From contig CABZSR010000015.1 of NCBI GenBank assembly GCA_902528415.1, positions 1 through 37,397 on the forward strand: DNA of 37,397 nucleotides, written 5' to 3'. The stretch is from an uncultured SAR116 cluster alpha proteobacterium. Lineage in GTDB: Bacteria > Pseudomonadota > Alphaproteobacteria > Puniceispirillales > Marisalimonadaceae. Numbering within the stretch: the first letter of the stretch is position 1; each line of letters begins with the position of its first letter. Position numbers and translations under genes: made by a program. The notes below the pieces were generated by a model. It had not been told where the DNA came from. It did not search any database and saw only the letters and a program-made list of their open reading frames with translations. Shown in pieces: positions 6,027-21,554 of the stretch.

Positions 6027-6041
6027 TTCAAATTAATTGAA
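6027..6041. promoter_or_regulatory. Candidate operator palindrome upstream of dctP
   Basis: TTCAAATTAATTGAA is a near-perfect palindrome (TTCAA, 5 bases, TTGAA). It lies about 80 bases upstream of the dctP start and just after the end of idnD. Such spaced palindromes often bind GntR- or IclR-type regulators of sugar-acid genes, but no regulator gene lies in this locus. In AT-rich DNA a match of this size can arise by chance. Confidence 0.25.
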
Positions 6042-6055
6042 CTGACCATATAAAA

Positions 6056-7087
6056 TTAGAATATTAATTGAACTTTCATACTATTTTCTTTTTCATCCAT
6101 TGCAATTTTGAAACCTTGTTCAGCGTTTTGAAAGGGAATACTGTGAGTAATAAGAGGTTTAACATCAATTAGTTTTTTTTTCATCATCTTGACAGCTAAT
6201 TCAAACTCCGAATGAAATCTAAAAGATCCTTTAATATTCAATTCTTTAGTTGTCACGGAAACTAATGGCATAAGAATATCCCCTCCCAATCCTAGTTGTA
6301 TAAGAGTACCTTTAGGTTTTAAACACTTAATAGCATCATTTATACCTGAGGCAGAGCCAGAACATTCAATTGCAAGATCAAAATGACCTTTCCCAACTTG
6401 AAATTTTTCAATTTGAGGATAGTTTTTTGAAGTATTTATAACTTTGTCTGCCCCTACTAAATTTGAAAATTCCAGAGCCCTATCTGAAATATCTGTAACT
6501 AATATTTCTTCTGCTCCTGCACGTCGGGCTGATAAAACACCAAGTGTTCCAATAGGACCAGATCCAATTATTAACACTTTTTTTCCAAAAATATCTCCTG
6601 CTTGTTTTATGGCGTGAAGACAAACTGCTAGTGGTTCTGCCATTGCCGCTTCTTCTGGTAATAGACCGTCTGCTGCTACGCATTGATAATCCTCCGCAAT
6701 TAGTCTTTCCCTAAAAGCGCCTTGAATATGAGGAAAGGGCATTGCAGAGCCATAAAATTTCATGTTTATGCAATGGTTCTGGTTGCCTTCTAAACAGAAC
6801 ATACATTTATAACATGGCCTAGATGGCGATACTGAAACTAGTTGTCCAATAGATAAGTTAGTTACTTTTGGTCCTAATTTAGTAACATGGCCAGATACTT
6901 CATGTCCTAATACCATAGGTTCCTTTAGCTTGATGTGGCCAAACCCACCATATTTATAATAGTGGAGATCAGTTCCACAAATACCGCCGGTTGCAATAGA
7001 AATTTCAACTTGATTAGAAGACATTTTTTCCAAGGTATAATCTTCTATTCTTAAGTCCATAGCTCCGTGAATCTTTATTGATTTCAT
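6056..7087 (-). CDS. idnD: Zinc-dependent medium-chain dehydrogenase, L-idonate 5-dehydrogenase-like
   Basis: Cytoplasmic NAD(P)-dependent polyol or sugar-acid dehydrogenase, 343 aa. The catalytic zinc ligands are C37 (GICGTD), H62 and E63 (LGHEVSG) and E151 (AEPLAV). The structural zinc site is C92, C95, C98 and C106. The Rossmann motif GSGPIG is at 175-180. The segments CGTDLHYYKYGGFG, EPMVLGHE and SRPCYKCMFC resemble L-idonate 5-dehydrogenases more than sorbitol or threonine dehydrogenases. It is divergent from the IdnO-like gene, and the two would convert idonate to 5-ketogluconate and then gluconate. Other polyol or hexonate substrates remain possible. Confidence 0.8.
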   Translation of the reverse strand: MKSIKIHGAMDLRIEDYTLEKMSSNQVEISIATGGICGTDLHYYKYGGFGHIKLKEPMVLGHEVSGHVTKLGPKVTNLSIGQLVSVSPSRPCYKCMFCLEGNQNHCINMKFYGSAMPFPHIQGAFRERLIAEDYQCVAADGLLPEEAAMAEPLAVCLHAIKQAGDIFGKKVLIIGSGPIGTLGVLSARRAGAEEILVTDISDRALEFSNLVGADKVINTSKNYPQIEKFQVGKGHFDLAIECSGSASGINDAIKCLKPKGTLIQLGLGGDILMPLVSVTTKELNIKGSFRFHSEFELAVKMMKKKLIDVKPLITHSIPFQNAEQGFKIAMDEKENSMKVQLIF

Positions 7088-7129
7088 ATCTATTTACCGC
7101 ATTCGAAATTAAGATTTAAGGTTAAATTT

Positions 7130-7159
7130 TTGAAAGATGATTAGCAATATTTTTATTAT
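7130..7159 (+). promoter_or_regulatory. Candidate sigma-70 promoter for the IdnO-like gene
   Basis: TTGAAA (7130-7135) and TATTAT (7154-7159) are separated by 18 bases. They lie 40-70 bases upstream of the ATG at 7199, inside the 111-base divergent region shared with idnD. The match is good, but the region is almost all A/T, so chance matches are likely. Confidence 0.35.
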
Positions 7160-7198
7160 TTATATATATTTTACTTTTATTCAATTTGGAGATAACGA

Positions 7199-7969
7199 AT
7201 GAGTTCTGGAACAGAATTATTTAATCTAAAAGGTAAAAGAGCTCTTATAACAGGTTCATCTCAAGGAATAGGTTTCGCTTTAGCCAAAGGACTTGATGAA
7301 GCTGGCGCAGAAATTATTTTAAATGGAAGGAATAAAGAAAAATTAGATGAAGCAGCAAAAGCTCTTAACCCACAAAATAATTTACATCAATTATCTTTCG
7401 ACGTTACTGACAAAAATGAGATTGATAATGTTATTAATAAATTTGAAAACGAAATAGGTTCAATTGAAATATTAGTAAACAATGCTGGAATGCAACATCG
7501 TACACCGCTTGAAGATTTTCCACCTGAAATGTTTGAACAATTATTAAAAACAAATATTTCATCCGTTTTTAATGTAAGCCAAGTAGTAGCAAGGCATATG
7601 ATTAAAAGGGGTTCAGGAAAAATTATAAATATTGCGAGTGTTCAAACTTTATTAGCAAGACCTAGTATTGCTCCTTACACAGCAACTAAGGGTGCTGTTG
7701 GAAATCTTACTAAAGGAATGGCAACAGATTGGGCAAAGTATGGACTTCAATGTAATGCTATTGCTCCAGGTTATTTTGACACACCTTTGAATGCCGTACT
7801 AGTGTCTGATAAAGATTTTACCTCTTGGTTAGAAAATAGAACACCTGCAGGTAGGTGGGGTAAAGTTGAAGAGTTGGTTGGTGCAAGTATTTTTTTAAGT
7901 TCTGATGCATCTAACTTTGTTAATGGGCACACTCTTTATGTTGATGGGGGCATTACGGCCTCTTTATAG
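7199..7969 (+). CDS. idnO: SDR-family oxidoreductase, gluconate 5-dehydrogenase (5-ketogluconate reductase)-like
   Basis: Cytoplasmic short-chain dehydrogenase, 256 aa. Motifs are the cofactor loop TGSSQGIG (18-25), NNAG (94-97), catalytic S147, and Y160/K164 (YTATK). The segment NLKGKRALITGSSQGIGFAL and the aromatic or hydrophobic residues around the active site resemble IdnO/Gno proteins, which reversibly reduce 5-keto-D-gluconate to D-gluconate. The ATG at 7199 is preceded by TTGGAG at a good distance. It is divergent from the IdnD-like gene. General SDR membership is certain; the gluconate assignment rests on resemblance and context. Confidence 0.85.
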   Translation: MSSGTELFNLKGKRALITGSSQGIGFALAKGLDEAGAEIILNGRNKEKLDEAAKALNPQNNLHQLSFDVTDKNEIDNVINKFENEIGSIEILVNNAGMQHRTPLEDFPPEMFEQLLKTNISSVFNVSQVVARHMIKRGSGKIINIASVQTLLARPSIAPYTATKGAVGNLTKGMATDWAKYGLQCNAIAPGYFDTPLNAVLVSDKDFTSWLENRTPAGRWGKVEELVGASIFLSSDASNFVNGHTLYVDGGITASL

Positions 7970-8076
7970 ATCAAATTAAAAAATTATTCTGATAAATTAA
8001 AAATTAAATAATAAATTTTCTTTTTATTTTAGAAATCAATGCTTCATTAAAGAAAAATTTTTCTAAAAATTTTGTT

Positions 8077-8550
8077 GTGATTGATGATGTTGATAAGAAA
8101 ATTTTAACTATAATACAGAAGAATGCTGGTTTACCTCTGTCAGAAATTTCTAAAAAGGTGGAAATTTCTTCTACGCTTTGTTGGATCAGGATAAAAAAAA
8201 TGGAAGAGGGTGGGGTAATTTCAGCTAGAGCTATAGTTCTTAAAAGAAAATCAATAAATTTAGCGGTAGTAGTTTTTTTATCTATTAGAGTTAGTCACCA
8301 ATCAAAAGACTGGATTTCAAGTTTTCAGAAAGTTATTGATAAGCATGAAGAAATTATCGAAACACATAGGTTAACTGGTTCAGACTTAGATTATTTATTA
8401 AAAATTGTTGCCTCTAGCATTGAGGATTATGATAATTTTCAGCAGAAGTTGATAGGAGAACTTGAATTTACAAAAATGTCTTCGGGTATATCACTTCAAG
8501 AAATGAAAAATTCTTATAATTTACCCTTAAAGCAGCTTGAAAACTTTTAA
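8077..8550 (+). CDS. Lrp/AsnC family transcriptional regulator
   Basis: DNA-binding regulator of 157 aa. The N-terminal winged helix-turn-helix (IDDVDKKILTIIQKNAGLPLSEISKKV, then the recognition region around STLCWIRIKKMEEGGVI) is followed by a RAM ligand-binding domain (about 65-150) with the family's RLTGSDLDYLLKI segment. The start is a GTG at 8077, giving the usual VIDDVDKKIL opening; an ATG at 8039 is out of frame and stops at once. Its stop overlaps that of convergent tupA in one TTAA. Amino-acid-responsive control of a neighbour, for example the amino-acid-derivative locus at 10878-19380, is possible but unproven. Confidence 0.9.
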   Translation: MIDDVDKKILTIIQKNAGLPLSEISKKVEISSTLCWIRIKKMEEGGVISARAIVLKRKSINLAVVVFLSIRVSHQSKDWISSFQKVIDKHEEIIETHRLTGSDLDYLLKIVASSIEDYDNFQQKLIGELEFTKMSSGISLQEMKNSYNLPLKQLENF

Positions 8551-9353
8551 CTTGCGTTAGGAAAAAAAAGTTGTTTTCCTTTCAATTTAAAGTTTTCAAT
8601 AACCTTTTGTCCTCTTTTTGATACGAGCCAACTAATAAATTTATTAGCGTTTTTAAATTTTACATTTGGACAATTTGATGGGTTAACCATCGTAACCCCA
8701 TATTGATTAAATAACGTTTTATTTTTTTCAGCTATAATACGTAAGTTATTTTTATTGTTAAAATTAATCCATGATGCTCTGTCACTTAATGTATACGCAC
8801 CCATACCACTTGCTAAATTAAGAGTTGTTCCCATCCCAGAACCTGTTTCTCTGTACCATTTTCCAGAGAATTTAATTGGCTTTAATTTAGCTTTGTTCCA
8901 TATACTTGTTTCTTTAAAATGGGTTCCAGAGTCATCGCCTCTTGATATAAAAATTGAGGATGTGGTAAAAATTTTTGTAAAAGATGTAATGGGGTCATCA
9001 GTTAAACTTATTTTAGCAGGATTTTCTTTTGGTCCAACTATTATGAAATCATTATACATTAAATTGTATCTCTTAAGGCCAAATCCATTTTTAACAAATT
9101 TTAACTCTCTTTTTTTTGCATGTACAATTAGTACGTCTCCGTCACAATTAGCTGCATTTTTCAGTGCAGCGCCAGTGCCAACTGATACAACATGAGCAAC
9201 TACATTTATCTCTGATTTAATAATTGGAAGTATATACTCATAGAAGCCTGAATTATAGGTTGAAGTTGTTGATTGAACTATTAATGAGTTTTCCCCTGAG
9301 CAGATCCTTGGAAATAATAAAAAAGAGAGAATAAATAGATTAATTCTAAACAT
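8547..9353 (-). CDS. tupA: Tungstate ABC transporter substrate-binding protein
   Basis: Periplasmic oxyanion receptor of the TupA/PBP family, 268 aa. A signal peptide (MFRINLFILSFLLFPRICSG) is followed by the diagnostic TTSTYNSG at 29-36, which binds the tetrahedral oxyanion. FISRGDDSGTHFKE and GSGMGTTLNLASGMGAYTLSDR are also typical. It is divergent from tupB across an 89-base gap. Tungstate serves tungsten or molybdenum pterin enzymes such as formate or aldehyde oxidoreductases, none of which is in the window. Molybdate or a mixed specificity cannot be excluded, but TTSTxxSG favours tungstate. Confidence 0.9.
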   Translation of the reverse strand: MFRINLFILSFLLFPRICSGENSLIVQSTTSTYNSGFYEYILPIIKSEINVVAHVVSVGTGAALKNAANCDGDVLIVHAKKRELKFVKNGFGLKRYNLMYNDFIIVGPKENPAKISLTDDPITSFTKIFTTSSIFISRGDDSGTHFKETSIWNKAKLKPIKFSGKWYRETGSGMGTTLNLASGMGAYTLSDRASWINFNNKNNLRIIAEKNKTLFNQYGVTMVNPSNCPNVKFKNANKFISWLVSKRGQKVIENFKLKGKQLFFPNAS

Positions 9354-9380
9354 ATTTTGCCTAACTAAAATAACGTAAAA

Positions 9381-9416
9381 ATTGCAATTATTGTAATTTT
9401 CACATAATATTGCAAT
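9381..9416. promoter_or_regulatory. Three ATTGYAAT palindromic repeats between tupA and tupB
   Basis: ATTGCAAT occurs at 9381-9388 and 9409-9416, with ATTGTAAT at 9390-9397 between them. Start-to-start spacings are 9 and 19 bases, close to one and two helical turns. All lie in the 89-base divergent gap, so a regulator bound here could control both tup directions. No regulator binding these sites is known to me. Confidence 0.4.
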
Positions 9417-9442
9417 TTAAAACATAATAAATCAATAATAAT

Positions 9443-10150
9443 ATGAATATTTTACTAGAAGCATTTGCGAAATCATTTGAGTTAGTTTTTACTCTTAATG
9501 AGGATTTATTTGAAATATTACTACTTTCTTTAAAAGTGAGCGGTATTTCATTACTATTTTCTTGTTTAATTGGTTTGCCATTAGGAACTTTTTTAGCCAT
9601 TAAAAGTTTTTGGGGTAAAGACGCATTTTTAGTTCTATTTAATACTATGATGGGGTTACCACCAGTTGTAGTTGGATTAATTGTTTATTTATTAGTTTCA
9701 AGGTCTGGGCCATTTGGCTGGCTAGGTATTTTATATACTCCAACTGCAATGATAATCGCTCAGATGATATTAATAACTCCAATTATAGTTTCGTTAACCT
9801 CTCAAATAATAGAAGAAATTAGTCAAGAATATAAATCTCTTTTTGCTTCTCTGGTAGTACCATCTCATAAAGCGATCATAGCGTATCTTTTTGATGCTAG
9901 ATATTCGATACTTACAGTAGTTTTAGCCGGATTTGGTAGAGCTATATCAGAAGTTGGAGCTGTTATAATTGTAGGTGGAAATATTGATCACTTAACAAGG
10001 GTTATGACGACAACAATAGCATTAGAAACTTCTAAAGGTAATTTGTCTCTAGCATTAGCTTTGGGAATAATTCTTTTATCAATTGCATTAACTACAAACT
10101 TTATTTTAATTCGTCTAAAGTTTAGGGCAAAAAGAAGAATGTATGTATAA
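9443..10150 (+). CDS. tupB: Tungstate ABC transporter permease
   Basis: Inner-membrane permease of the tungstate importer, 235 aa, with about five or six hydrophobic segments. The ATPase-coupling EAA loop is near residues 130-170 and includes AGFGRAISEVGAVIIVGGN, the form typical of TupB/WtpB/ModB permeases. It ends eight bases inside tupC, so translation is likely coupled. No strong ribosome binding site is visible before the ATG. It lies opposite tupA across the repeat-bearing gap. Confidence 0.93.
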   Translation: MNILLEAFAKSFELVFTLNEDLFEILLLSLKVSGISLLFSCLIGLPLGTFLAIKSFWGKDAFLVLFNTMMGLPPVVVGLIVYLLVSRSGPFGWLGILYTPTAMIIAQMILITPIIVSLTSQIIEEISQEYKSLFASLVVPSHKAIIAYLFDARYSILTVVLAGFGRAISEVGAVIIVGGNIDHLTRVMTTTIALETSKGNLSLALALGIILLSIALTTNFILIRLKFRAKRRMYV

Positions 10151-10877
10151 ATCTAACAAAAAAAACTTAATGAAATTAACTCCCATTGAAGTAATTGATC
10201 TATCAGTTTTATTAGGAAAAGATCTAATTCTAGACAAGGTTAGTTGTAGCATTAAAAATAATTCTATTACTGCAGTAATTGGACCAAACGGTGCTGGCAA
10301 AAGTATATTTTTACAGACCATAAATGGATTAACAAATATAGATGATGGGAAAATAACGTTTAACAAACTACACAACAATGATGAAATTAGAAATAAGCAA
10401 GCAATGGTTTTTCAAACTCCCACTTTGTTAAGAAGAAATGTAAAATCCAATATGGATTTTGTTTCTAATGTTAAAAATAAAAATGGCAAATTAGTCATTA
10501 AAAAAATTCTAAAAAGAGTTGGATTAGAGGGATATGATGACAAACCTGCACGTTTACTTTCTGGAGGAGAAAAACAAAGACTATCTTTAGCAAGAGCTTT
10601 ATTAATTGAGCCGTCTGTTCTTCTACTTGATGAGCCCACTGCAAATTTAGACCCATTTTCATTGAAATTAATAGAAGAAATTATGCTAGAGGAGAGTAAA
10701 AAAGGGGTTACAATTATACTTACTACACATGATATGGCTCAAGCTAAGAGACTAGCATCTGATATAATTTTTTTTAATAGGGGTAAAATACTAGAGCAAA
10801 CAGATGCAAATGCATTTTTTAAAAACCCTTTAACTAAAGAGGCAAAAAAATATATCAATGGAGAAATTCTTTTATAA
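10143..10877 (+). CDS. tupC: Tungstate ABC transporter ATP-binding protein
   Basis: ATPase subunit of the tungstate importer, 244 aa. The Walker A GPNGAGKS is at 47-54, Q-loop near 91 (VFQTP), signature LSGGEKQR near 139, Walker B LLLDEPT at 160-166 and the switch H196 (TTHD). The start at 10143 overlaps the end of tupB by 8 bases. A second in-frame ATG nine codons later (MKLTP) is also possible. Its stop abuts the convergent M20 gene, and no terminator sequence separates them. Confidence 0.93.
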   Translation: MYKSNKKNLMKLTPIEVIDLSVLLGKDLILDKVSCSIKNNSITAVIGPNGAGKSIFLQTINGLTNIDDGKITFNKLHNNDEIRNKQAMVFQTPTLLRRNVKSNMDFVSNVKNKNGKLVIKKILKRVGLEGYDDKPARLLSGGEKQRLSLARALLIEPSVLLLDEPTANLDPFSLKLIEEIMLEESKKGVTIILTTHDMAQAKRLASDIIFFNRGKILEQTDANAFFKNPLTKEAKKYINGEILL

Positions 10878-12047
10878 TTATTCCACAAGAATTGTTTCAG
10901 CCAAGTTTGCCCAGTATTCAGCACCAATTGGTAATAATGCATCATTGAAATCATAATACGCACTGTGAAGCTTTTCTGCATCCTCGCCTGCTCCTAGCCA
11001 GATATACGCTCCTGGTTTCTCTTGAAGCATATATGAAAAATCTTCAGAACCCATAGTTGGAGTTTCTTTAACATTGATTGAAGTTTCACCAAAAGTATTT
11101 TTAAAAATCTCTGATGCTAATTTTGCACTTTTTTTGTCGTTTATTGTTGATGGATATCCTGGCCTAATTTCAATGTTAACTTTGCAGTTAGAAATTGCGC
11201 ATGCGTTTAATGCAACTTTCTTAATCTTTTTTAGCATGTCATCTCTTATGATTGTATTGGTTGACCTTAGGGTTCCTCCAATTTTTACTGTATCGGGTAT
11301 TACATTAAAAGCTGAACCACCTTCAATTTTAGTAAGTGATAAAACAGCATTTTTAAATGGATCTAATTGTCTTGAAATTAAACTTTGAAGAGCTGTAATG
11401 GTTAAACCGGCTGCTACGATTGGATCATTAGAATATTGAGGCTGGGCTGCATGCCCTCCTTTTCCTTCAATTGTAAAAATAATTATATCTCCCCCAGCCA
11501 TTGCAAAACCTTCATGAATGACGGCTTGGCCTAGAGGTATTCCTGGCCAATTATGTATTCCCCAGACAGTGTCGATTTTAAATTTTTTAAAAAGACCATC
11601 ATTAATCATTGCCTTTGCACCTGCGTTGCCACCTTCTTCTGCTGGCTGAAAAATACAATATACTGTTCCATGAAAATTTCGTGTTTCTGCTAGGTATTTT
11701 GCTGCACCCAATAACATTGTTGAATGACCGTCATGACCGCACGCATGCATAGATCCTTCATTTTTGGATGCATAGGGTAAATTAGTCTTTTCTGTCATAG
11801 GAAGAGCGTCCATATCAGCTCTTATTCCTATTGTTTTTTTTGAATTACTATTTTTACCTTTAATAATTCCAACAATACCAGTCTTACCAATACCCTGATG
11901 CACCTCTATGCCAAATTCATTTAGCTTCTTTGAAATAAAGTAAGAAGTATCTTTTTCTTGGTACGCTACTTCAGGTTTCTCGTGGATACTATGTCGCCAT
12001 TCAATCATTGCGGGAGTTATTTGTTCAATTTTTTGCTTGATATTCAT
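10878..12047 (-). CDS. M20-family amidohydrolase (hippurate hydrolase/N-acyl-amino-acid deacylase-like)
   Basis: Cytoplasmic metallopeptidase that removes an acyl group from an amino acid or similar amide, 389 aa. Family motifs are RADMDALPM (77-84), HACGHDGH with ligands C103 and H105, QPAEEGG with E137/E138, IHNWPG, the dimerization domain around 180-290, and GSEDFSYM near the C-terminus. The Cys ligand and GSEDFS are typical of the hippurate/IAA-amino-acid hydrolase group, not of ArgE or DapE. It is divergent from an N-formylglutamate amidohydrolase gene by about 50 bases. The context points to catabolism of N-acylated amino acids; the exact acyl group is unknown. Confidence 0.9.
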   Translation of the reverse strand: MNIKQKIEQITPAMIEWRHSIHEKPEVAYQEKDTSYFISKKLNEFGIEVHQGIGKTGIVGIIKGKNSNSKKTIGIRADMDALPMTEKTNLPYASKNEGSMHACGHDGHSTMLLGAAKYLAETRNFHGTVYCIFQPAEEGGNAGAKAMINDGLFKKFKIDTVWGIHNWPGIPLGQAVIHEGFAMAGGDIIIFTIEGKGGHAAQPQYSNDPIVAAGLTITALQSLISRQLDPFKNAVLSLTKIEGGSAFNVIPDTVKIGGTLRSTNTIIRDDMLKKIKKVALNACAISNCKVNIEIRPGYPSTINDKKSAKLASEIFKNTFGETSINVKETPTMGSEDFSYMLQEKPGAYIWLGAGEDAEKLHSAYYDFNDALLPIGAEYWANLAETILVE

Positions 12048-12096
12048 TTTTTATACACTCAATAATTAGGTATTATTTTAAAATTTGGAGCTTCAA

Positions 12097-12963
12097 ATGT
12101 CTGATAAGATCCTAAACGTTGAAGGAGATGAAGGTCAATCTATTCCTTTAATAATTGATTCTCCTCATAGTGGCACTGAATATCCATTAGATTTCAATCA
12201 TCAAGCACAACTTTCAAAACTAAGACAAGCTGAAGATACTCATGTTAATGAGCTATATGAATATGTTTCATCTATTGGTGGGGTTTTTATAGAAGCTAAA
12301 TTTCCAAGGTCATATATTGATCCTAATAGATCAGAAACCGATTTCATATTTGAAGATTTAAATGAAAAAAATAACAGTATTAGCAAAATAAAATTTAATC
12401 CCACTATTAAAAGTGAACTTGGCATTGGTTTAGTTTGGATAAAAATTCCTCCAAATGGAGAGCCAATGTATAAAGATAAAATTACACTAAAACAATTGAT
12501 GGATAGAGTTAATATATATCATAGACCATATCATAAAATACTTAAACACACACTAAACGAAACTTATAAAAATTATGGTAAGTTTTACCATGTAAATGCT
12601 CACTCCATGCAAAATCAAGCTACAGCAATGTCAGATCAATCACAGGGCACAATAAGACCAGACTTTGTAATAGGAGATAGAGAAGGAACATCTTGTCATA
12701 GAAAGTTTACAGACCTTATTGTAGATTTTTTGAGGGGTTTAAACTACTCTGTAGATATCAATTATCCATATAAAGGTATGGAACTTGTAAAAGCATATAG
12801 TGATCCTTTGCAAAATAAGAATTCAGTTCAAATTGAGGTAAATAGAAAATTATATATGAATGAAGAAACAAGAAAAAAAACAGACAACTTCAAAATTTTA
12901 AAAAAAGATTTAGAAAAACTAATTAATAAAATAAGAAAAGAAATTGATGAGGGTTACTTATGA
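12097..12963 (+). CDS. N-formylglutamate amidohydrolase family protein
   Basis: Predicted zinc amidohydrolase (FGase/HutG fold) that cleaves an N-formyl or related N-acyl amino acid, 288 aa. Conserved pieces are DSPHSGTEYP, EDTHVNELYEYV, KFPRSYIDPNRSETD, YHVNAHSMQNQA with a metal-binding His, and VQIEVNRKLYM. The ATG at 12097 is preferred to an upstream TTG at 12085 because TTGGAG stands 7 bases before it. Its stop overlaps the start of the double-ATPase gene (ATGA). No other histidine-utilisation gene is nearby, so the real substrate may be a product of the adjacent importer and not histidine-derived N-formylglutamate. Confidence 0.9.
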   Translation: MSDKILNVEGDEGQSIPLIIDSPHSGTEYPLDFNHQAQLSKLRQAEDTHVNELYEYVSSIGGVFIEAKFPRSYIDPNRSETDFIFEDLNEKNNSISKIKFNPTIKSELGIGLVWIKIPPNGEPMYKDKITLKQLMDRVNIYHRPYHKILKHTLNETYKNYGKFYHVNAHSMQNQATAMSDQSQGTIRPDFVIGDREGTSCHRKFTDLIVDFLRGLNYSVDINYPYKGMELVKAYSDPLQNKNSVQIEVNRKLYMNEETRKKTDNFKILKKDLEKLINKIRKEIDEGYL

Positions 12964-14855
12964 ATGTGTCAGGTATACAAAGTAAAAAAAACAACTCCTT
13001 ACCTGTAATAGAAGTAAAAGATCTTAAAGTTCATTTTAATTTAAAAGATCACGTGGTTAAAGCTGTTGATGGAGTATCATTCGATATCAAAAAAGGAGAA
13101 ACAATTGCTATTGTTGGCGAATCTGGTTCAGGCAAATCTGTCACTGCATTATCACTAATGAGACTTGTTGATTTTTCAGGTGGAAACATAATTTCAGGAG
13201 AAATTAATCTAGAAACTAAAAATAAAATAAATCTAGATTTAGCTCAACAGAGCCAAGAAATAATGAAAGATATTAGAGGTAACGATATTTCTATGATTTT
13301 TCAAGAACCCATGACATCGTTAAATCCAGTATTCACAATACGAATGCAAATGACAGAAATAATCTTAAAGCATCAGGGAAAAACTAAGGCGGAAGCTCTC
13401 GAAATAGCATTGGAAATGTTGAAGTTAGTTAGAATACCTGAGCCTGAAAAAAGATTAAACCAATATCCGCACGAGCTCTCAGGGGGTATGAGACAAAGAG
13501 TCATGATAGCTATGGCATTAAGTTGTAAACCTTCTTTACTAATTGCTGATGAACCCACAACTGCGCTTGATGTTACAATACAGGCTCAAATACTAGATTT
13601 AATTAAATTGTTACAACGTGATATAGGAATGTCGGTAATTTTTATTACTCATGATATGGGAGTGGTTGCAGAAATTGCTGATAGGGTTGTTGTAATGTTT
13701 GCTGGAAAAAAAGTTGAAGAAGGATCTGCATTGGAAATTTTCAATAATCCACAACACCCTTATACAAAATCATTGCTTGCAGCCGTTCCAAAATTAGGAA
13801 GTATGAAAGGTAAGTTACTACCCGCAAAATTTATGAATGTAGATATAAATTCATCAGACAATCAGCAATTAAAAACAATAACTCAAAATAAAATAATTGA
13901 AATAAAAGATACTGTAAATAGAGTTTCCAATCCTTTACTTCAGGTTAGAGGATTAACAACAAGGTTTTCTATAAAACAGGATTTTGGAACAAAAAAAGGT
14001 AATATTCATGCTGTTGAAAATATTGATCTTAGTTTGCAACCTGGAGAAACTTTTGGGCTGGTTGGTGAAAGTGGATGTGGAAAATCTACAACTGGAAGAA
14101 GTATTATAGGTTTAACATCACCAACAAGAGGGAGTGTTGTTTTTGAGGGGGTAGAATTAACCAACTTAAATAATAAAGAGATGATTCAATACAGAAAACA
14201 AATGCAAATGATATTTCAAGATCCTTTTGCATCTTTAAATCCTCGTATGACAGTTGGACAGATAATAGCTGAACCTATTTTAGTACATGGATTAGATGAA
14301 AAATTAGGATCAACTGAAAAAGTTATGCAATTGTTAAATCGTGTAGGATTGAACGAACAATATGCCTTGAGATTCCCACACGAACTTTCGGGGGGGCAGA
14401 GGCAGAGAATTGGGATTGCAAGAGCACTTGCTTTAGAACCAAAATTAATTATTGCTGATGAAGCTGTTTCCGCCCTAGATGTCTCCATTCAGGCACAAGT
14501 AGTTAACTTAATGATGGAACTTCAAGAAGAGTTTGGCCTGTCTTACCTCTTTATAAGTCATGATATGGCAGTAGTTGAAAGAGTTAGTCATAGAATAGGT
14601 GTAATGTATCTAGGTGAGATAGTTGAAATTGGTCTAAGAAGTGAAATTTTTGAAAATCCGCAACATCCATATACAAAAAAGTTAATGGCTGCAGTGCCAA
14701 TAGCAGATCCTAGTAAAAGAAAAACAAAGTTAAATTTGATGAGCGACGAAATTCCTAGTCTTTTAAAACCACATGGTTATGAGCCTAAAAAAATAGAAAT
14801 GGTAAAATTGAGTGAAGAGCATTTTGTTAAACCGTTTGAAGGAATGATTAATTAA
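12960..14855 (+). CDS. Peptide/nickel-type ABC transporter, fused double ATP-binding subunit
   Basis: Single polypeptide carrying both ATPase domains of a Dpp/Opp-type importer, 631 aa. Domain 1 has Walker A GESGSGKS (53-60), LSGGMRQR and Walker B LIADEPT. Domain 2 has GESGCGKS (369-376), LSGGQRQR and LIADEAVSALD. Each domain ends with the oligopeptide C-terminal motif (PQHPYTK...AAVP). This is the GsiA/YejF layout. It is coupled to the amidohydrolase upstream by a 4-base overlap. The two permeases and the binding protein are on the other strand at 15878-19380 and probably complete the transporter. The substrate is likely a peptide or N-acyl amino acid. Confidence 0.95.
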   Translation: MNVSGIQSKKNNSLPVIEVKDLKVHFNLKDHVVKAVDGVSFDIKKGETIAIVGESGSGKSVTALSLMRLVDFSGGNIISGEINLETKNKINLDLAQQSQEIMKDIRGNDISMIFQEPMTSLNPVFTIRMQMTEIILKHQGKTKAEALEIALEMLKLVRIPEPEKRLNQYPHELSGGMRQRVMIAMALSCKPSLLIADEPTTALDVTIQAQILDLIKLLQRDIGMSVIFITHDMGVVAEIADRVVVMFAGKKVEEGSALEIFNNPQHPYTKSLLAAVPKLGSMKGKLLPAKFMNVDINSSDNQQLKTITQNKIIEIKDTVNRVSNPLLQVRGLTTRFSIKQDFGTKKGNIHAVENIDLSLQPGETFGLVGESGCGKSTTGRSIIGLTSPTRGSVVFEGVELTNLNNKEMIQYRKQMQMIFQDPFASLNPRMTVGQIIAEPILVHGLDEKLGSTEKVMQLLNRVGLNEQYALRFPHELSGGQRQRIGIARALALEPKLIIADEAVSALDVSIQAQVVNLMMELQEEFGLSYLFISHDMAVVERVSHRIGVMYLGEIVEIGLRSEIFENPQHPYTKKLMAAVPIADPSKRKTKLNLMSDEIPSLLKPHGYEPKKIEMVKLSEEHFVKPFEGMIN

Positions 14856-14879
14856 CAATGTAATTTAGAAATAAGAATT

Positions 14880-15863
14880 ATGAATGACCCAAGACTAGAT
14901 TATGCTAATGAGTTCCCGGTAGAATTAACTGCTCCTGACATATCAAGTTATAAAAAAACTAATACAGGAGTTGATTATATATTATCACTTGATAGCGGTA
15001 TGAGTGGTCCTCATGTTTTTATATCTTCAATAGTACATGGGAATGAACCTTGTGGAGCTATTGCTTTAGATTGGTTTTTAAAAAATAATTTTAGACCTAA
15101 ATCAGGTAAATTAACTCTAGGTTTTATGAATGTTGAGGCTTATTTTGCTTTTGATCCCAAAAATCCAAATAGAACTAGATGGGTTGATGAAGATTTTAAC
15201 AGATTATGGGCAGATGGTGTCTTGGAAGATACTACCAGAAAAAAGACTAGTGAATTTTTTAGAGCTAATGAAGTCAAGAGCATAGTATCACAAGCTGATT
15301 ATTTATTAGATATTCACTCAATGCAAAAACCATGTGTTCCACTTATGATGGCAGGTACATTAGAAAAAGGTATTAACTTTGCTAAATCTGTTGGAATGAG
15401 CATGCCTATTATTTCTGACATAGGCCATATAGAGGGTATGAGAATGAGAGATTACTTGGACTTCTCAAGTAAAGAGAGTAATAAAAATGCGCTCCTAGTT
15501 GAATGTGGTCAACATTGGGAAAAACTGTCTGAAAGAATAGCAATTGAAACTCTGATAAGATTTCTTAGAAGCACAAGCACTATGGATAAAAAATTTGGTG
15601 AAGAGTTTCTAAATGAAAAAAAGCCTAAAAAATTTCAAAAAGAGGTTTATCGGGTAGGAGAAATTATCACTATAAAGACAGATAAATTTAAATTTTCTAG
15701 TGACTGGCAAGGCTTTGAAGTCCTAAAAAAAGGGACTGTTATTGGTAAAGATGACAAGGAATTTGTTTATGCTCCATATGACGAAACAATTTTAATAATG
15801 CCTACTAAAAGGTTATTCAAAGGTAAAACGGCTGTTAGGCTAGCATACAGAATTGAAGATTAA
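14880..15863 (+). CDS. AstE/AspA family metallo-deacylase
   Basis: Zinc carboxypeptidase-fold hydrolase (succinylglutamate desuccinylase/aspartoacylase family), 327 aa. Zinc ligands are H53 and E56 (VHGNEPCGA) and H146 (DIHSM). R108 (DFNR) is the substrate-binding Arg and E208 (VECGQH) the candidate general base. A C-terminal beta domain runs from about 245. It lies 24 bases after the double-ATPase gene, so it is probably in the same operon. It would hydrolyse an N-acyl amino acid brought in by the importer. True AstE or aspartoacylase activity is not shown, because other arginine-succinyltransferase genes are absent here. Confidence 0.85.
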   Translation: MNDPRLDYANEFPVELTAPDISSYKKTNTGVDYILSLDSGMSGPHVFISSIVHGNEPCGAIALDWFLKNNFRPKSGKLTLGFMNVEAYFAFDPKNPNRTRWVDEDFNRLWADGVLEDTTRKKTSEFFRANEVKSIVSQADYLLDIHSMQKPCVPLMMAGTLEKGINFAKSVGMSMPIISDIGHIEGMRMRDYLDFSSKESNKNALLVECGQHWEKLSERIAIETLIRFLRSTSTMDKKFGEEFLNEKKPKKFQKEVYRVGEIITIKTDKFKFSSDWQGFEVLKKGTVIGKDDKEFVYAPYDETILIMPTKRLFKGKTAVRLAYRIED

Positions 15864-15877
15864 ACAATTATTTATTT

Positions 15878-16756
15878 TTAATGAAGTCGAGGATTAAACA
15901 TATCTCTTAAATGGTCTCCAACTAAATTTATGGAAGCAACGGTAATAAGTAACGCCACACCAGGAAAGATGCTAATCCAATAATCACCGCTATACATATA
16001 TTCAAACCCATTGCCAATAAGAAGACCTAAAGAAGGCTCTGTGATAGGTAATCCGAGCCCAAGAAAACTTAGCGTTGCTTCCAATGAAATAGCATGAGCT
16101 GTTTGAAGAGTACCAACAACAATTAGTGGTGCCATACAATTTGGTAGAATATGTTTAAACATGATCCTGGTATTACTAAAAGCCAAACATCTCGCTGCAT
16201 CAACATATTCTTTATTTAACTCTACTAAAGCACTCGAACGAGCAGTTCTTGCATAATAGGCCCATTGGACCAAAATTAATGCAATAATTGTTTTTTCAAC
16301 TCCTTTTCCAAAAGCAGCTAGAATTATCAGAGCAACTAAAATTGAGGGAAAACTTAGTTGAATATCGACTATCCTCATAACTACAGATTCGTATTTTCCT
16401 CCAAAAAAAGCTGCTGAAATTCCAAAAAAAGATCCAATAATAAGGGCAAAAATGCCTGAAAGCACACCAACGCCTAGACTAACACGTAAACCATAAAATA
16501 TAGCAGAAACCATATCTCTTCCAGCTCCGTCGGTGCCAAGTAAAAAATAATTCCCAGAAAAGTCTTCTGAAAAAGGGGCTAGCCTGCTATTCATTATACT
16601 TACAGTATTTAGATCATATGGGTCAGTTGGTGATACCAAAGGTGCAAAAACAGCAACAAATAAAACTAACATAAAAACTATTAAAGATACCACAGCAACT
16701 TTATTGGATGAAAAATCTTTCCAAAACTCTTTGATTTTTTTTATTTTGGGGTTCAT
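15878..16756 (-). CDS. Peptide ABC transporter permease (DppC/OppC type)
   Basis: Inner-membrane permease of the binding-protein-dependent importer, 292 aa. An N-terminal segment (KVAVVSLIVFMLVLFVAVFAP) precedes the periplasmic LAPFSEDFSGNYFLLGTDGAGRDM region typical of DppC, and then about five further membrane helices. The EAA coupling loop is in ALVELNKEYVDAARCLA near 175-190. It overlaps dppB-like gene 16753-17730 by 4 bases. Its stop lies 15 bases from the convergent AstE/AspA-like gene. Confidence 0.95.
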   Translation of the reverse strand: MNPKIKKIKEFWKDFSSNKVAVVSLIVFMLVLFVAVFAPLVSPTDPYDLNTVSIMNSRLAPFSEDFSGNYFLLGTDGAGRDMVSAIFYGLRVSLGVGVLSGIFALIIGSFFGISAAFFGGKYESVVMRIVDIQLSFPSILVALIILAAFGKGVEKTIIALILVQWAYYARTARSSALVELNKEYVDAARCLAFSNTRIMFKHILPNCMAPLIVVGTLQTAHAISLEATLSFLGLGLPITEPSLGLLIGNGFEYMYSGDYWISIFPGVALLITVASINLVGDHLRDMFNPRLH

Positions 16757-17730
16757 TCACTGTCACCTTTAATTCTCACTCTAGGGTCTAAAAATGTATA
16801 AAGAATATCGACAATAAGGTTTAGAAAAACAAAAAATGTTACAATGATCATCAGATAAGCGACAATAACTGGTCTATCTAGATTATAAATTGAGTCAATG
16901 ATTAGTTTACCCATTCCAGGCCACGCAAATACTGTTTCAGTAACAGTTGAAAACGCGATTAGTGATCCAAATTCAAGTCCAACAACTGTAACAATGGGAA
17001 TTAGAATATTCTTTAGTATATGTACTAAAACTATTCTTTTTTCAGACAAACCTTTTGATCGAGCAAAAGTAATATAATCTTGAAGAATTATTTCTCTTGT
17101 TCCTGCTCTAGTTAAGCGAATCACCGATGAAATTTTAAATAATGCTAAATTCAAAGCAGGTAGAAAAACGTGTGACAACCCATTTAAGGTAAATAAAGAG
17201 CTGTTAATCCCTAAAAAAGTACCAATTTCACCTCTTCCAGTTGATGGTAACCATCCAAGATGGACTGCAAAAATCATAATAAAGATAATGCCTACCCAAA
17301 ATGTTGGCATTGAAAAACCTAAAATTGAACCACCCATTATTATTTTGCTAGTTTTACTCTCTGGCTTATAGCCTGCATAGATACCAAGAGGTATTGCTAT
17401 GACAAGTGAAACAAAAAGAGAAAATAATGCTAATTCTAGTGTCGCCGGCATTCTTTGAATAATCAGTTTCAATGCTGGTTCACCAAAAATAAATGAATCT
17501 CCAAGATCACCTTTAAAAGCATTTACTAAGAAATACCAATACTGTTCTGTAACAGGTCTATCTAATCCTAACTCTCTTATAACTCTTTCTACTTCGGCTT
17601 GGTCAGCTTCGGGGTTAATCAGCATTTCAACTGGATCCCCAACTAGATTAACCCCCCCAAACACCAAGAGTGACATTATAAATAATACGAGTACACTCTG
17701 AGCTAATCTTGTAAATATAAAAGGGGTCAT
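16753..17730 (-). CDS. Peptide ABC transporter permease (DppB/OppB type)
   Basis: Partner inner-membrane permease, 325 aa. It has the standard DppB start (RLAQSVLVLFIMSLLVFGGVNLVGDP), ELGLDRPVTEQYWYFL, and about six membrane helices. The coupling loop is around FARSKGLSEKRI, and it ends in LYTFLDPRVRI. It is translated just before the DppC-type gene (4-base overlap). It follows the binding-protein gene across a 60-base gap that contains a terminator-like hairpin. Confidence 0.95.
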   Translation of the reverse strand: MTPFIFTRLAQSVLVLFIMSLLVFGGVNLVGDPVEMLINPEADQAEVERVIRELGLDRPVTEQYWYFLVNAFKGDLGDSFIFGEPALKLIIQRMPATLELALFSLFVSLVIAIPLGIYAGYKPESKTSKIIMGGSILGFSMPTFWVGIIFIMIFAVHLGWLPSTGRGEIGTFLGINSSLFTLNGLSHVFLPALNLALFKISSVIRLTRAGTREIILQDYITFARSKGLSEKRIVLVHILKNILIPIVTVVGLEFGSLIAFSTVTETVFAWPGMGKLIIDSIYNLDRPVIVAYLMIIVTFFVFLNLIVDILYTFLDPRVRIKGDSE

Positions 17731-17744
17731 GTTTTCATCATTAA

Positions 17745-17778
17745 ATTAAAAAAAACCAGAGCAGTTATGCACTGGTTT
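17745..17778 (-). terminator. Terminator-like hairpin with U8 between the binding-protein and permease genes
   Basis: On the leftward transcript a 7-bp stem (AAACCAG/CTGGTTT, + strand arms 17753-17759 and 17772-17778) continues past a T-T mismatch into GCA/TGC with a 4-base loop. CTGG is followed directly by eight U. It lies between the dppA-type stop and the dppB-type start. It probably ends part of the transcription so that binding protein is made in excess over permease. Structure and U-run are seen; partial read-through is inferred. Confidence 0.65.
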
Positions 17779-17790
17779 AAATTGTTCTAA

Positions 17791-19380
17791 TTACTTACAG
17801 TTTACGTAAGTTGCAATAGTTCTCTCGTCTGTTCGAGGAGTGTAGCTACAGCCGGATTTAGATGCCCAAGTATTCATTTGATAATGTATTGGGATAACAC
17901 CATAATTTTTACCTACTGCTACTTCTGTTGCTTCTGCAAGAAGTTTTCCTCTTGCATCAGAGTCAACGGTTCCAAGAGCTTCTTGAACTAGTTTGTCTAC
18001 AATAGGATCAGAATGTCTTCCTCTATTGGCTCTTCCCATCCCTATAGACTTATCATAAGTATGCAAAAGTGCTCTCAAAGGAGATGAAGCTTCTCCGGAA
18101 CCAGCCCCCCAACCTAGAACCATAAAACTGAATTCTGGACTTTTATTAGGACCACCACGTGATGCTCTTTTGAAATAGACAGCTTTTGGCATTGTTTCAA
18201 CTTTTGCTTTAATACCAATTCTTGAGAACATTTGAGCTAAAGCTTCTGCAATTTTAGCATCATTAATGTATCTATCATTTGGTCCGTGAATTGTCATTTC
18301 AAAACCATTGCCATAACCAGCTTCCTTCAAAAGCATTTTTGCAGTATCAGGATCATAAGGATCAGGTTTCATTTTTGTTGAAACTCCATGAAAACCTGCA
18401 GGTAATAATTGGCCTGCTTTAACAGCTATACCTTCCATTACCTTTGCAACCATTGCGTCACGATTAATTGCTAATGATAAAGCTTTCCTAACTCTAACAT
18501 CCATTAAAGGGTTTTTAATTTTTCCGCCACCAATGGCAGTGATGTGAGGTGAGTCTTCTCTGAATTGGTCCATATGTAAATAAATAACACGGTTAGATGG
18601 ACCACTATTTAATTTGATTGTAGGATTTTTTTTCATTTTTCCAACATTCAAAGGAGGAACGTTGTCAATAAAATCAACATCCTTTGCTAATAGTGCTGCT
18701 ATTCTGGCTGGACCAGACTTAATAGGTTTAAAAAGTACATTTTCAAACTGTGCCATTCCAGTACCGGCTCCATGATAATCTTTATTAGCTTTTAGGACAA
18801 TCTTGTCACCAGGCACCCATTCAACAAATTTGTAAGGTCCAGTTCCTATAGCAGCTTTTCCACTGTTGTAGTCACCAGTAGTAGCACCTTCACCATTTTT
18901 CTTTGAAATAATTTTAACAGTCATTATGTCATTAGGCATTAGAGGATAGGGCTTTTTTGTTTTAATATGTATAGTATGACTATCTATTTTAATAAACTCT
19001 TTCCCTTTTAAATAAGTACCAAATCCTGATGGAGATTTTGGAACATTTTGTGCTCTTTCAGCAGTAAATATAACATCGTCAGCTGTAAAATCACTGCCAT
19101 CATGAAATTTTACACCTTTTCTTAGTTTAAATTCCCATGTTGTATCATTTATGGGCTTCCATGACGTAGCTAAGTCAGGATAGTGTTGTTGGTTTTCGTC
19201 TGATCCAACTAAAGTTCCGTAAATATGTGTTGCGAAAGCGTTATTAGGACCAAGATTATGGTAATGTGGATCAATTGAGCTAGGCTCAGATTTTAATCCA
19301 ACAGTAAGATCTTTTGCCAAAGCCACAGTAGACAAAAGACAACTTATCATCACTATAAAAAGTCTGTTGATTAATTTCAT
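17791..19380 (-). CDS. Peptide ABC transporter substrate-binding protein (SBP family 5)
   Basis: Periplasmic receptor of the Dpp/Opp class, 529 aa. A signal peptide with cleavage near VALA|KD precedes family-5 landmarks: LKSEPSSIDPHYHNLGPNN, PDLATSWKPINDTTWEFKLRKGVKFHDG, FTADDVIFTAER, GTGPYKFVEW and RKALSLAINRDAM. It has no lipobox. The ATG has a strong AGGAGGG upstream, consistent with high expression. A divergent gap of 150 bases separates it from the alpha/beta hydrolase gene. It leads an operon with two permeases and probably works with the double ATPase at 12960-14855. Confidence 0.95.
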   Translation of the reverse strand: MKLINRLFIVMISCLLSTVALAKDLTVGLKSEPSSIDPHYHNLGPNNAFATHIYGTLVGSDENQQHYPDLATSWKPINDTTWEFKLRKGVKFHDGSDFTADDVIFTAERAQNVPKSPSGFGTYLKGKEFIKIDSHTIHIKTKKPYPLMPNDIMTVKIISKKNGEGATTGDYNSGKAAIGTGPYKFVEWVPGDKIVLKANKDYHGAGTGMAQFENVLFKPIKSGPARIAALLAKDVDFIDNVPPLNVGKMKKNPTIKLNSGPSNRVIYLHMDQFREDSPHITAIGGGKIKNPLMDVRVRKALSLAINRDAMVAKVMEGIAVKAGQLLPAGFHGVSTKMKPDPYDPDTAKMLLKEAGYGNGFEMTIHGPNDRYINDAKIAEALAQMFSRIGIKAKVETMPKAVYFKRASRGGPNKSPEFSFMVLGWGAGSGEASSPLRALLHTYDKSIGMGRANRGRHSDPIVDKLVQEALGTVDSDARGKLLAEATEVAVGKNYGVIPIHYQMNTWASKSGCSYTPRTDERTIATYVNCK

Positions 19381-19530: not shown

Positions 19531-20355
19531 TTGCATTTTACAGAAATAATAAATCAATTGCCGCAATTAAAAATATTTAAGGACAACACATACAATATAA
19601 AAATTTCTTACAGATACCAAAAATTTAATGAAGAAATTCCAATATTATTTCTACATGGATTTAATGGAAATAGTAAAAGTTGGGCATATCAATTTGATTA
19701 TTTTAAAGGTAGAAGATCAGTTATAGCTATTGACGCACCAGGTTTTGGCCAGTCTGATCCTTCAGATTTAGATATGTTGTCTATATCAAATATTGTTTAT
19801 AACTTATTAAAAAGTATAAATGTTTCAAAGTGTGATCTAGTAGGTCATTCAATGGGTGGAATGCTTGCTCAAATAGTTGCATCAAAACATAGCAAATTAA
19901 TTAATAAGGTAATTCTATCTTGTACTCATAAAGGTTATGCGATGCCCGTAGGAAGTTCTCTGAGAGATCCATATAAATTAAGGCTAGAAGAGCGAAAACA
20001 AATGTCTAATAAAGAATTTGGTAAATTAAGAATCCAAAAAATGTTACCTGAATTAAAAAATCTAGAGATCTTCAATTTTTTATCTTTAATAAGTGAAGAA
20101 ATTACGGAAGGTTCTATCAAATCTGGTGGAATGGCCATGCAGACTTTAGATACAACAGATTATCTATCAAATCTCAAACAAGATTGTCTTATATTAAAGG
20201 GTTCAAAAGATATTGTTGTATCCAAAGAACGTTCTTATCAGTTAGAAATTTTATTGAGGCACGCCAAAATTAGTGAAATACCCAATGTTGGACATGCGCC
20301 TTATTGTGAAGATAAAAAAACTTACAATGCCGAAGTAGAAAATTTTTTCCAATAA
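19531..20355 (+). CDS. Alpha/beta hydrolase
   Basis: Alpha/beta-hydrolase fold enzyme, 274 aa, probably cytoplasmic. The oxyanion region HGFNG is near 42-46. The nucleophile is S107 in GHSMGG. The acid is the Asp of GSKDIVV, and the catalytic His is in NVGHAPYCE close to the C-terminus. The start is TTG at 19531 because TTGGAG lies about 8 bases upstream and no suitable ATG exists. Its stop overlaps the next start (TAATG), so it is coupled to the MFS gene. Substrate unknown; esters or enol-lactones are common for this fold. Confidence 0.85.
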   Translation: MHFTEIINQLPQLKIFKDNTYNIKISYRYQKFNEEIPILFLHGFNGNSKSWAYQFDYFKGRRSVIAIDAPGFGQSDPSDLDMLSISNIVYNLLKSINVSKCDLVGHSMGGMLAQIVASKHSKLINKVILSCTHKGYAMPVGSSLRDPYKLRLEERKQMSNKEFGKLRIQKMLPELKNLEIFNFLSLISEEITEGSIKSGGMAMQTLDTTDYLSNLKQDCLILKGSKDIVVSKERSYQLEILLRHAKISEIPNVGHAPYCEDKKTYNAEVENFFQ

Positions 20356-21554
20356 TGACTGCCTTATCAAACAAGCCTTTTACTTTATATTTTCTCAGTA
20401 ATACAATCGCTCTTTTAGGCCTTTGGATACAAAAAATTGGAGTTGGTTGGCTTACATGGGAAACTACTGAATCAACTTTTTGGACAAGTTTTGTTACTTT
20501 AGCTTTGATGGCTCCAGCAGGAGTTATAGGTCCTCTATTTGCTGTTTTTGCCGAAAATTGGAATATGAGAACAGCAAGTATTATATTGAAAGTGCTAATG
20601 TTTATGACTGGAGGTATAATCTGGTTTTTGCAATATTTAGATATGCATTCGCTATTCACTTTAGCTTTTTTATCAATTTTGCAAGGTTTATTAAGTGCAT
20701 GTTATCATCCAGTAAGACTAGTTTTTGTGTCTATAGTTGTTCCTAGAAATTTGTTATCCAGTGCAGTAGGGCTTAATTCAGCTTCTTTTAATGGATCCAG
20801 AGTTGTAGGGCCAGCTTTCGCTGGTGTCACAATAGCTTTATTTAACCTCGAAACAACTTTTTTTATTGCTATGCTTACTTATATTCCACTCATTCCAGTT
20901 TTAATTTATATGCCGCTTAGAGATCGAGTTAATTCCTCAAACGTACACGATAATTTTCTCAAACGTCTGTTAGAGGGTGGAAAAGTAGCATTGAAAACTC
21001 CAATTATAGCCAGGGGTTTATTTGTAGTTTTTGTCAGTGCATTCTTTGTACGTGGAATGCTTGAGATACAACCCACTATTGCAGGAGAAATTTTAAATAA
21101 AGGTAGTGTTGGATTGTCTTTAATTACAGCAACTGCTGGATTTGGGGCTTTACTTGCTTCTATCTGGATAGGTTTGCGAACTAATACTGAAGTAAAAATT
21201 GAAACTAAATTGGTCCCAATGTTAACTCTAGGACTAGTAGTAAGTTTCATACTTGGTTTTATCTCAGAAATGTACTTAATGGCATTTGCTTTTACAATTG
21301 TTGGTTTTACTACGACAGTTGTAGGTATTGGTACACAAACAGTAATACAATTAGAGGTTAATGAAATTTATCGAGCTAGGGTTTTAACTTGGTGGTCCAG
21401 TGTTTCTTTTGGTTCTCTCACAATTGGAGGAATATTGTTAGGTCTTGCAGGGGAATTTATCCCTCTGAATGTTGGTATGATGATAATGCCAATTCTAGGA
21501 TATCTGATATTTAAATTAGTGGTTTATTCTCATTTTAAAAACGACTTTATGTAG
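20355..21554 (+). CDS. MFS transporter (EntS/MFS_3-like)
   Basis: Membrane transporter of 399 aa with about 12 helices. The N-terminus (FTLYFLSNTIALLGLWIQKIGVGWLTWE) and the following GLLSACYHPVRLVFVSIVVPRNLLSSAVGLNSASFN region match the MFS_3/EntS-like branch, usually exporters. It is coupled to the alpha/beta hydrolase by a one-base TAATG overlap, so the pair may modify and export or import one compound. It is convergent with, and overlaps by 8 bases, the EamA gene. Confidence 0.88.
   Translation: MTALSNKPFTLYFLSNTIALLGLWIQKIGVGWLTWETTESTFWTSFVTLALMAPAGVIGPLFAVFAENWNMRTASIILKVLMFMTGGIIWFLQYLDMHSLFTLAFLSILQGLLSACYHPVRLVFVSIVVPRNLLSSAVGLNSASFNGSRVVGPAFAGVTIALFNLETTFFIAMLTYIPLIPVLIYMPLRDRVNSSNVHDNFLKRLLEGGKVALKTPIIARGLFVVFVSAFFVRGMLEIQPTIAGEILNKGSVGLSLITATAGFGALLASIWIGLRTNTEVKIETKLVPMLTLGLVVSFILGFISEMYLMAFAFTIVGFTTTVVGIGTQTVIQLEVNEIYRARVLTWWSSVSFGSLTIGGILLGLAGEFIPLNVGMMIMPILGYLIFKLVVYSHFKNDFM

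Follow-up and report, generated by a model that had tools for sequence, protein, structure and literature searches.

The genes at positions 10,878 to 19,380 of the window, by which we mean the whole 37,397-nucleotide stretch of SAR116 cluster alphaproteobacterial DNA that was analysed, may encode a modular system in which an importer and several hydrolases scavenge amino acids that carry an N-acyl group, or comparable small amides; judged from the sequences, the probability of this reading is about 0.5. Surface seawater commonly contains SAR116 bacteria. If the reading is correct, capped amino acids would represent a nutrient class that may escape general transporters of peptides and amino acids, and functions could be proposed for several hydrolase subfamilies whose present annotation rests on distant resemblance only. 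With the gene pairs recurring as described below, the idea can be tested in relatives from lineages other than SAR116 that exist as named strains.

An earlier sequence-only reading of this DNA had placed a hydrolase trio (M20, FGase-like and AstE/AspA-like) around one importer whose subunits are divided between two convergent operons. Profile matches bear out the first point, with every gene lying where it had been placed, and the gene order bears out the second. The three amide-hydrolase families surround a complete Dpp/Gsi-type importer, and the main Pfam family of each gene product scores above its curated cut-off. The features are as follows.

10878..12047, minus strand: M20D amidohydrolase (TIGR01891 subfamily); profile match, relatives of known structure, invariant site residues.
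12097..12963, plus strand: FGase-family (PF05013) amidohydrolase; Pfam and 2q7s matches; the listed reading frame starts from TTG 12085.
12960..14855, plus strand: fused two-domain importer ATPase (DppD+DppF / GsiA-like); Pfam, best NCBIfam match GsiA.
14880..15863, plus strand: diverged AstE/AspA-fold hydrolase; fold and invariant site residues.
15878..16756, minus strand: importer permease C (PermC); Pfam/NCBIfam profiles.
16753..17730, minus strand: importer permease B (PermB); Pfam/NCBIfam profiles, alignment to DppB.
17735..17785, minus strand: hairpin followed by a U-run, between the binding-protein and permease genes; -11.8 kcal/mol, z -3.31.
17791..19380, minus strand: periplasmic binding protein, SBP family 5, GsiB-like; Pfam and alignments.
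19531..20355, plus strand: possible accessory alpha/beta hydrolase, its gene diverging from that of the binding protein; present in 33 of the 34 SAR116 loci read with both flanks.
20355..21554, plus strand: possible accessory MFS transporter, encoded directly downstream of the alpha/beta hydrolase; likewise in 33 of 34 such loci.

The FGase-ATPase-AstE and SBP-PermB-PermC operons converge with 14 bp between them, while the M20 gene lies outside both, as a single gene divergent from FGase. The FGase start is more likely ATG 12097 than TTG 12085, a GGAG being found just upstream of the ATG. Neither promoter-like sites (40, against a mean of 38.9 in shuffled sequences) nor terminator-like sites (3 against 4.8) are in excess.

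The transport proteins belong to the Dpp/Opp class, with matches above cut-off to PF00496, to PF00528 with OppC_N and BPD_transp_1_N, and to PF00005 with PF08352. The fused ATPase scores 834.7 bits against GsiA (cut-off 1077) and the binding protein 167.3 bits against GsiB (cut-off 594). In DppA, D436 holds the amino group of the dipeptide and R42 of a DppB loop pairs with D436 (PMC12136057). The window binding protein has Gly in the D436 column, on which ground a DppA-type dipeptide receptor was rejected; just 3 of the 84 distinct sequences have Asp there, the other 81 lacking it. As a paralogue control, 29 proteins were aligned, from 30 loci of 48 matches; among 23 other family-5 binding proteins, Asp occupies this column in 6 (pairwise, reference included, with 6 more gapped there) or in 3 (MAFFT). 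Because most of the compared paralogues also lack it, the missing Asp lends weak support to N-blocked ligands. An Arg that is invariant in all 84 binding proteins matches the carboxylate-binding R383 of DppA in pairwise HMMER alignment, but not in MAFFT. PermB has Pro-Glu in the place of E41-R42 of DppB. The structural matches of the binding protein in Foldseek and VIA-align are receptors for very different ligands, and therefore indicate no particular ligand.

The M20 protein falls within the M20D subfamily (TIGR01891, 351.1 bits, cut-off 153.75). Residues C103, H105, E137, E138, H165 and H361, which we take to be the metal and active-site residues, are invariant in seven SAR116 sequences, and the nearest solved structures are ILR1-like 2 (1xmb), YxeP (1ysj), an M20 peptidase (4ewt) and N-alpha-acyl-glutamine aminoacylase (6slf). 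The protein scores below the equivalog cut-offs of DoeB2 (NF038260, 363.6 bits against 550) and CpsA (NF040868, 358.7 against 500). The FGase protein matches PF05013 at 175.9 bits (gathering cut-off 28.9) and 2q7s with an E value of 4.9e-61. A role as HutG in histidine degradation was rejected for this gene because the score lies under the HutG cut-off (TIGR02017, 90.9 bits against 278.75); the scan of ten window proteins brought up no enzyme of the hut pathway. The third hydrolase belongs to the AstE/AspA superfamily by its fold, the His/Glu/His of the Zn site and the catalytic Glu, and residues H53, E56, H146 and E208, together with N107-R108, are invariant in 32 sequences. It reaches only 35.9 bits against PF24827, and lies under the NCBIfam cut-offs of AstE (TIGR03242, 21.8 bits against 305.65) and of aspartoacylase. 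CphZ, a cyanophycin dipeptide hydrolase (PMC12661447), is among its structural matches, with 14% identity and a Z score below that of AstE. Inspection by eye revealed no evident signal peptide in the hydrolases. The proposal that each of them removes an N-acyl group is plausible by family, although none reaches the cut-off of a named specific enzyme, and the M20D and M14-like families also include peptidases.

Within SAR116, the loci with enough flanking sequence carry the M20 gene in 36 of 36 cases, FGase in 35 of 36, and the permeases and binding protein in 39 of 39. The division of subunits over two operons was observed in 23 of the 34 loci read with both flanks, and in one more that carries an added M20 gene; a local ATPase is absent from 8 of the 34. 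In one of the 23 split loci (L053), the match to the ATPase is broken in two. In other SAR116 lineages (loci L089, L090 and L091), the two ATPase genes lie beside the permeases, as they do in the majority of those Rhodospirillales-type loci that have an ATPase match. Since the ATPase genes sit with the permeases in these lineages, the split arrangement appears to be derived. One genome of the same genus (G031, estimated 100% complete) has neither the AstE-like gene nor any oligo_HPY match.

A lack of co-occurrence in relatives had been set in advance as one of the points that would overturn the sequence-only reading, and the genes do occur together: SAR116 has kept the set, which is found again in distant alphaproteobacteria, with the M20 type swapped and often in partial form. 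Across 289 genomes sampled from the class, the genes for AstE-like and FGase-like proteins, for the permease and for ArgE-type M20 enzymes adjoin one another far above expectation, the expectation assuming uniform placement and independent genomes. The recurring pairs are AstE-FGase, AstE-ArgE and FGase-ArgE, and the importer with each. The grouping is no local accident. The M20 slot varies by lineage, being filled by M20D, ArgE-like M20A or, in some lineages, carbamoylase-like M20s; in the loci read outside SAR116, no M20D of the window type was found near AstE. Many relatives stand apart: 68 of the 82 AstE-like genes in the sampled genomes have no permease of this importer within 15 kb, and 18 of the best 35 FGases adjoin none of AstE, PermB and ArgE. 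When these 18 and their surroundings were scanned with the proteins of the set, one (L203) proved to be the same importer operon broken by a contig end and another (L218) to lie beside a different Dpp-type operon; four (L201, L204, L207 and L213), read by eye, have neighbours that are presumably housekeeping genes.

The periplasmic binding protein, two permeases and fused ATPase form one importer. In the proposed mechanism, it would take in amino acids bearing an N-acyl group (acetyl, formyl, carbamoyl, succinyl or similar), or acyl-dipeptides, in which the carboxylate is free. The hydrolases, differing in the acyl group or side chain that they prefer, would then free the amino acid and a short acid, to serve as nitrogen and carbon sources, and a swap of M20 types would adjust which substrates can be used. 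The sequence-only reading had likewise proposed import of N-blocked amino acids or peptides, with release of the amino acid and the acyl group; it is partly supported, in that the gene set is conserved and recurs, whereas no window hydrolase reaches a substrate-specific cut-off. A broader and more tentative proposal is that of a widespread alphaproteobacterial guild, conserved in surface-ocean SAR116, that would combine one importer devoted to N-blocked amino acids with interchangeable N-deacylases (AstE-fold, FGase, M20D, ArgE-type, carbamoylase-type) and so provide a general route by which capped amino acids in dissolved organic matter are used.

The importer might instead take up non-standard dipeptides with beta-aspartyl, gamma-glutamyl or similar linkages (beta-Asp-Arg from cyanophycin, for instance, or glutathione-like peptides), with the hydrolases splitting them. 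This is unlikely, given that CphZ is no closer to the AstE-like protein than DoeB or aminoacylase 3 and that the GsiB and GsiA cut-offs are missed; moreover, we know of no FGase or ArgE-type enzyme that acts as an isopeptidase. Also unlikely is the uptake of ordinary peptides by a standard di/oligopeptide importer whose neighbours are cytoplasmic peptidases (an M20 dipeptidase or carboxypeptidase, an M14-like carboxypeptidase): the recurring partners come from families named for N-acyl or N-carbamoyl cleavage (FGase, ArgE, AstE, carbamoylase), no general aminopeptidase was seen among the proteins scanned, and the binding protein lacks the amino-group Asp of DppA, as do most compared paralogues.

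The named relatives DoeB/DoeB2, ErtE, AstE and HutG act on related compounds, which would fit the stepwise degradation of one specific conjugate (for example an N-acyl-glutamyl or N-acyl-diamino compound, as in ectoine or ergothioneine breakdown), each hydrolase performing one step. The hydrolases are, however, gained and lost independently between lineages, which suits parallel rather than sequential action, and the ten window proteins that were scanned include no other recognisable enzyme of ectoine, ergothioneine or hut metabolism; we consider this explanation very unlikely. Finally, partial sets are common, as would be expected of chance or selfish clustering of genes that serve unrelated pathways, but the linkage far above expectation in the class-wide sample, and the joint absence of the AstE-like gene and any oligo_HPY match from the same-genus genome (completeness estimated at 100%), leave that explanation with scarcely any weight.

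Among known systems, E. coli DppABCDF resembles the window importer in class, PermB aligning over residues 2-321 of 325, but the window binding protein lacks D436 and the window permease loop lacks R42 of the Dpp proteins (PMC12136057). The glutathione importer GsiABCD is of the same Dpp/Opp class; the window proteins differ in scoring under its GsiA and GsiB cut-offs and in being accompanied by hydrolases of N-deacylase families. The window M20 protein shares sequence family and invariant site residues with the M20D aminoacylases YxeP, ILR1 and AgaA, yet passes no specific equivalog cut-off. The FGase shares PF05013 and kinship to 2q7s with HutG-type N-formylglutamate amidohydrolases; in contrast to these, it lies under the equivalog cut-off, and further FGase relatives are found elsewhere in the host genome. 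The AstE-like protein has the fold and Zn-site pattern of the AstE, aspartoacylase and DoeB family, from which it is set apart by its low PF24827 score and by falling under the AstE and aspartoacylase cut-offs. The statement that no named pathway has such a combination agrees with the open-access papers searched, whose titles and abstract openings offer no precedent. The pairing of an importer with cytoplasmic hydrolases is a known general arrangement, of which the present gene set is a variant.

The locus lies in the window, which is one complete contig from a 1.72 Mb draft genome, and the seven genes named in the sequence-only reading are all present there:

10878-12047, minus strand: M20D amidohydrolase, divergent from the FGase gene
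12085/12097-12963, plus strand: FGase, overlapping the fused two-domain ATPase
12960-14855, plus strand: fused two-domain ATPase, between the FGase and AstE-like genes
14880-15863, plus strand: AstE-like gene, after the fused ATPase
15878-19380, minus strand: PermC, PermB and the binding protein (SBP), facing the FGase-ATPase-AstE genes

A hairpin with a U-run is found between the binding-protein and permease genes, and may allow higher expression of the binding protein than of the permeases. Another importer set (binding protein, permease, ATPase; 8547-10877) ends right against the M20 gene; we named it by eye, and its binding protein is presumably of the tungstate/molybdate type. This importer was left out of the set: many loci from the genus of the window have it beside M20, whereas those read in the other SAR116 genera do not. 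The same genome carries further FGase relatives (C24:10185-10892 and C2:132161-132895) with counterparts across the order, and the locus FGase is thus an additional paralogue.

The set is conserved within SAR116. The AstE-like protein is 96-98% identical to counterparts in ten genomes, most labelled SAR116 cluster, and its gene is present in 48 of the 58 genomes of the family. Nine of the ten genomes without it are only 53-85% complete; the genome G031, of the same genus and estimated as 100% complete, has neither an AstE-like gene nor an oligo_HPY match. In the comparison of 45 SAR116 loci, M20 is present in 36/36 and FGase in 35/36 loci whose upstream flank reaches 3 kb or more, and PermB, PermC and SBP in 39/39 loci whose downstream flank reaches 8 kb or more. 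In 23 of the 34 loci that include both flanks, the genes are ordered as in the window, and 8 lack a local ATPase. One genus (L078-L087, L100) keeps the SBP and permeases, but its loci show no match to an importer ATPase (8 both-flank loci); its importer must either rely on an ATPase encoded elsewhere or be non-functional. The other three of the 34 are L090, where the ATPases are separate and a carbamoylase-like M20 lies upstream, L077, in which a carbamoylase-type M20 is added, and L089, which is without FGase and carries a carbamoylase-type M20 together with another M20D and another Dpp-type operon.

Outside SAR116 the set recurs with exchanged parts. Of the best 80 of 150 relatives, 35 are neither labelled SAR116 nor placed with it, and some of these loci end at contig ends, so that the counts are lower bounds. 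An importer and an FGase lie within 10 kb of the AstE-like gene in at least 26 and 13 loci, respectively, and an ArgE-type M20 within 3 kb in at least 12; at least 5 loci have all three and at least 29 have one or more. In the usual order, AstE (in some loci with ArgE or a LysR regulator) is divergent from SBP-PermB-PermC-ATPase-ATPase-FGase. An AbrB-family membrane protein (PF05145, as identified in L130) lies within 1.5 kb in at least 12 of the 35; the pairing is frequent (L131, L132, L134, L162, L165-L170 and others), and the SAR116 loci listed have no PF05145 match. In L033, two long reading frames (5454-8630) adjoin an AstE-like gene; judged by eye, we take them to resemble MlrC/M81-type hydrolases.

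A class-wide sample of 289 genomes, including the window's, was searched for each part; it shares loci with the best-80 relatives (for example, the L099 locus is in genome G417), so that the two counts are not independent. Matches were found in 82 genomes for AstE-like (E up to 0.001), at least 197 for FGase, 36 for PermB (E up to 1e-110) and at least 145 for ArgE-type (E up to 1e-90). For linkage, 82 AstE hits from 71 genomes were used (E at most 1e-40); the expectations assume uniform placement and independent genomes, and the values are effect sizes rather than probabilities. By coordinates, 14/82 AstE hits have PermB within 15 kb (0.33 expected) and, among the FGase matches listed, 12/82 are linked to FGase (0.59 expected), as are 11/36 for PermB (0.32 expected). 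Among the ArgE matches listed, and with one 4 Mb genome length for ArgE pairs and best FGases, ArgE lies within 5 kb of 17/82 AstE hits (0.22 expected) and within 15 kb in 8/41 for PermB (0.35 expected). Seven of the 35 best FGases are linked to ArgE (0.21 expected; four of the seven in one genus) and 17 have AstE, PermB or ArgE at a distance of up to 15 kb, again among the matches listed; one further best FGase (L203) belongs to this same operon, which a contig end interrupts there.

The exchanged enzymes carry the main argument. The ArgE-type M20 of L099 scores 399.4 bits with the acetylornithine deacetylase equivalog, above the cut-off of 297.7. The carbamoylase-type M20 of L038 reaches 311.8 with the hydantoinase/carbamoylase subfamily, where the cut-off is 204, and is nearest to the N-carbamyl-L-glutamate amidohydrolase ErtE, under its cut-off (441.3, cut-off 520). 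The hydrolase families of the set take their names from N-acyl or N-carbamoyl amino-acid hydrolysis, as seen in the family scans of the proteins and in the aminoacylase table of PMC11511702. Since the enzyme types vary and the reaction type is constant, N-blocked amino acids are the favoured substrates. Gene content, fold and active-site pattern, conservation and linkage are established; in the proposed working, the binding protein and ABC importer would take up a ligand of this class, and the capping amide would then be cut in the cytoplasm by whichever hydrolase fits, yielding free amino acid and acid. The hydrolases, in which no signal sequence was seen by eye, are probably cytoplasmic and may act in parallel.

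The pocket bears on whether ordinary peptides are the substrates instead. In E. coli DppA, D436 holds the free amino group of the dipeptide and pairs with R42 of DppB (PMC12136057). The window's binding protein has Gly in this column, and in 84 distinct relatives scoring at least 450 bits, which include at least one paralogue (L180), the column holds Gly in 78, Ala in 2, Ser in 1 and Asp in 3; Arg occupies the R42 place in 0/73 permeases. For glutathione-binding relatives, PMC3295651 regards dipeptides as unlikely ligands once this Asp, Asp408 in those proteins, is replaced. Both positions would fit a ligand that lacks a free amino group. The paralogue control weakens this, however: of 23 additional family-5 binding proteins, taken from the window's genome and five others, only 6 have the Asp by pairwise alignment (including the reference, with 6 other proteins gapped there) or 3 by MAFFT. 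An Arg conserved in 84/84 matches R383, the carboxylate residue of DppA, by one alignment method and not by the other. The three proteins with Asp are second, tandem copies in L104, L118 and L120 (L139 has the same sequence as L120), where a LysR-like gene separates a binding protein with the DppA-type Asp from one without; one might serve free and the other blocked ligands.

The scavenging of N-acyl amino acids or N-blocked peptides, as read from the sequence, stands in part. The recurrence with exchanged parts speaks for it, and the 68/82 AstE hits not near this permease count against it; isopeptides or ordinary peptides as substrates of importer and hydrolases, or one conjugate degraded in multiple steps, remain as rivals. 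No named system matching this set was found in the literature searched, and this recurrence gives the interpretation of N-blocked substrates a firmer footing than it had from the sequence alone.
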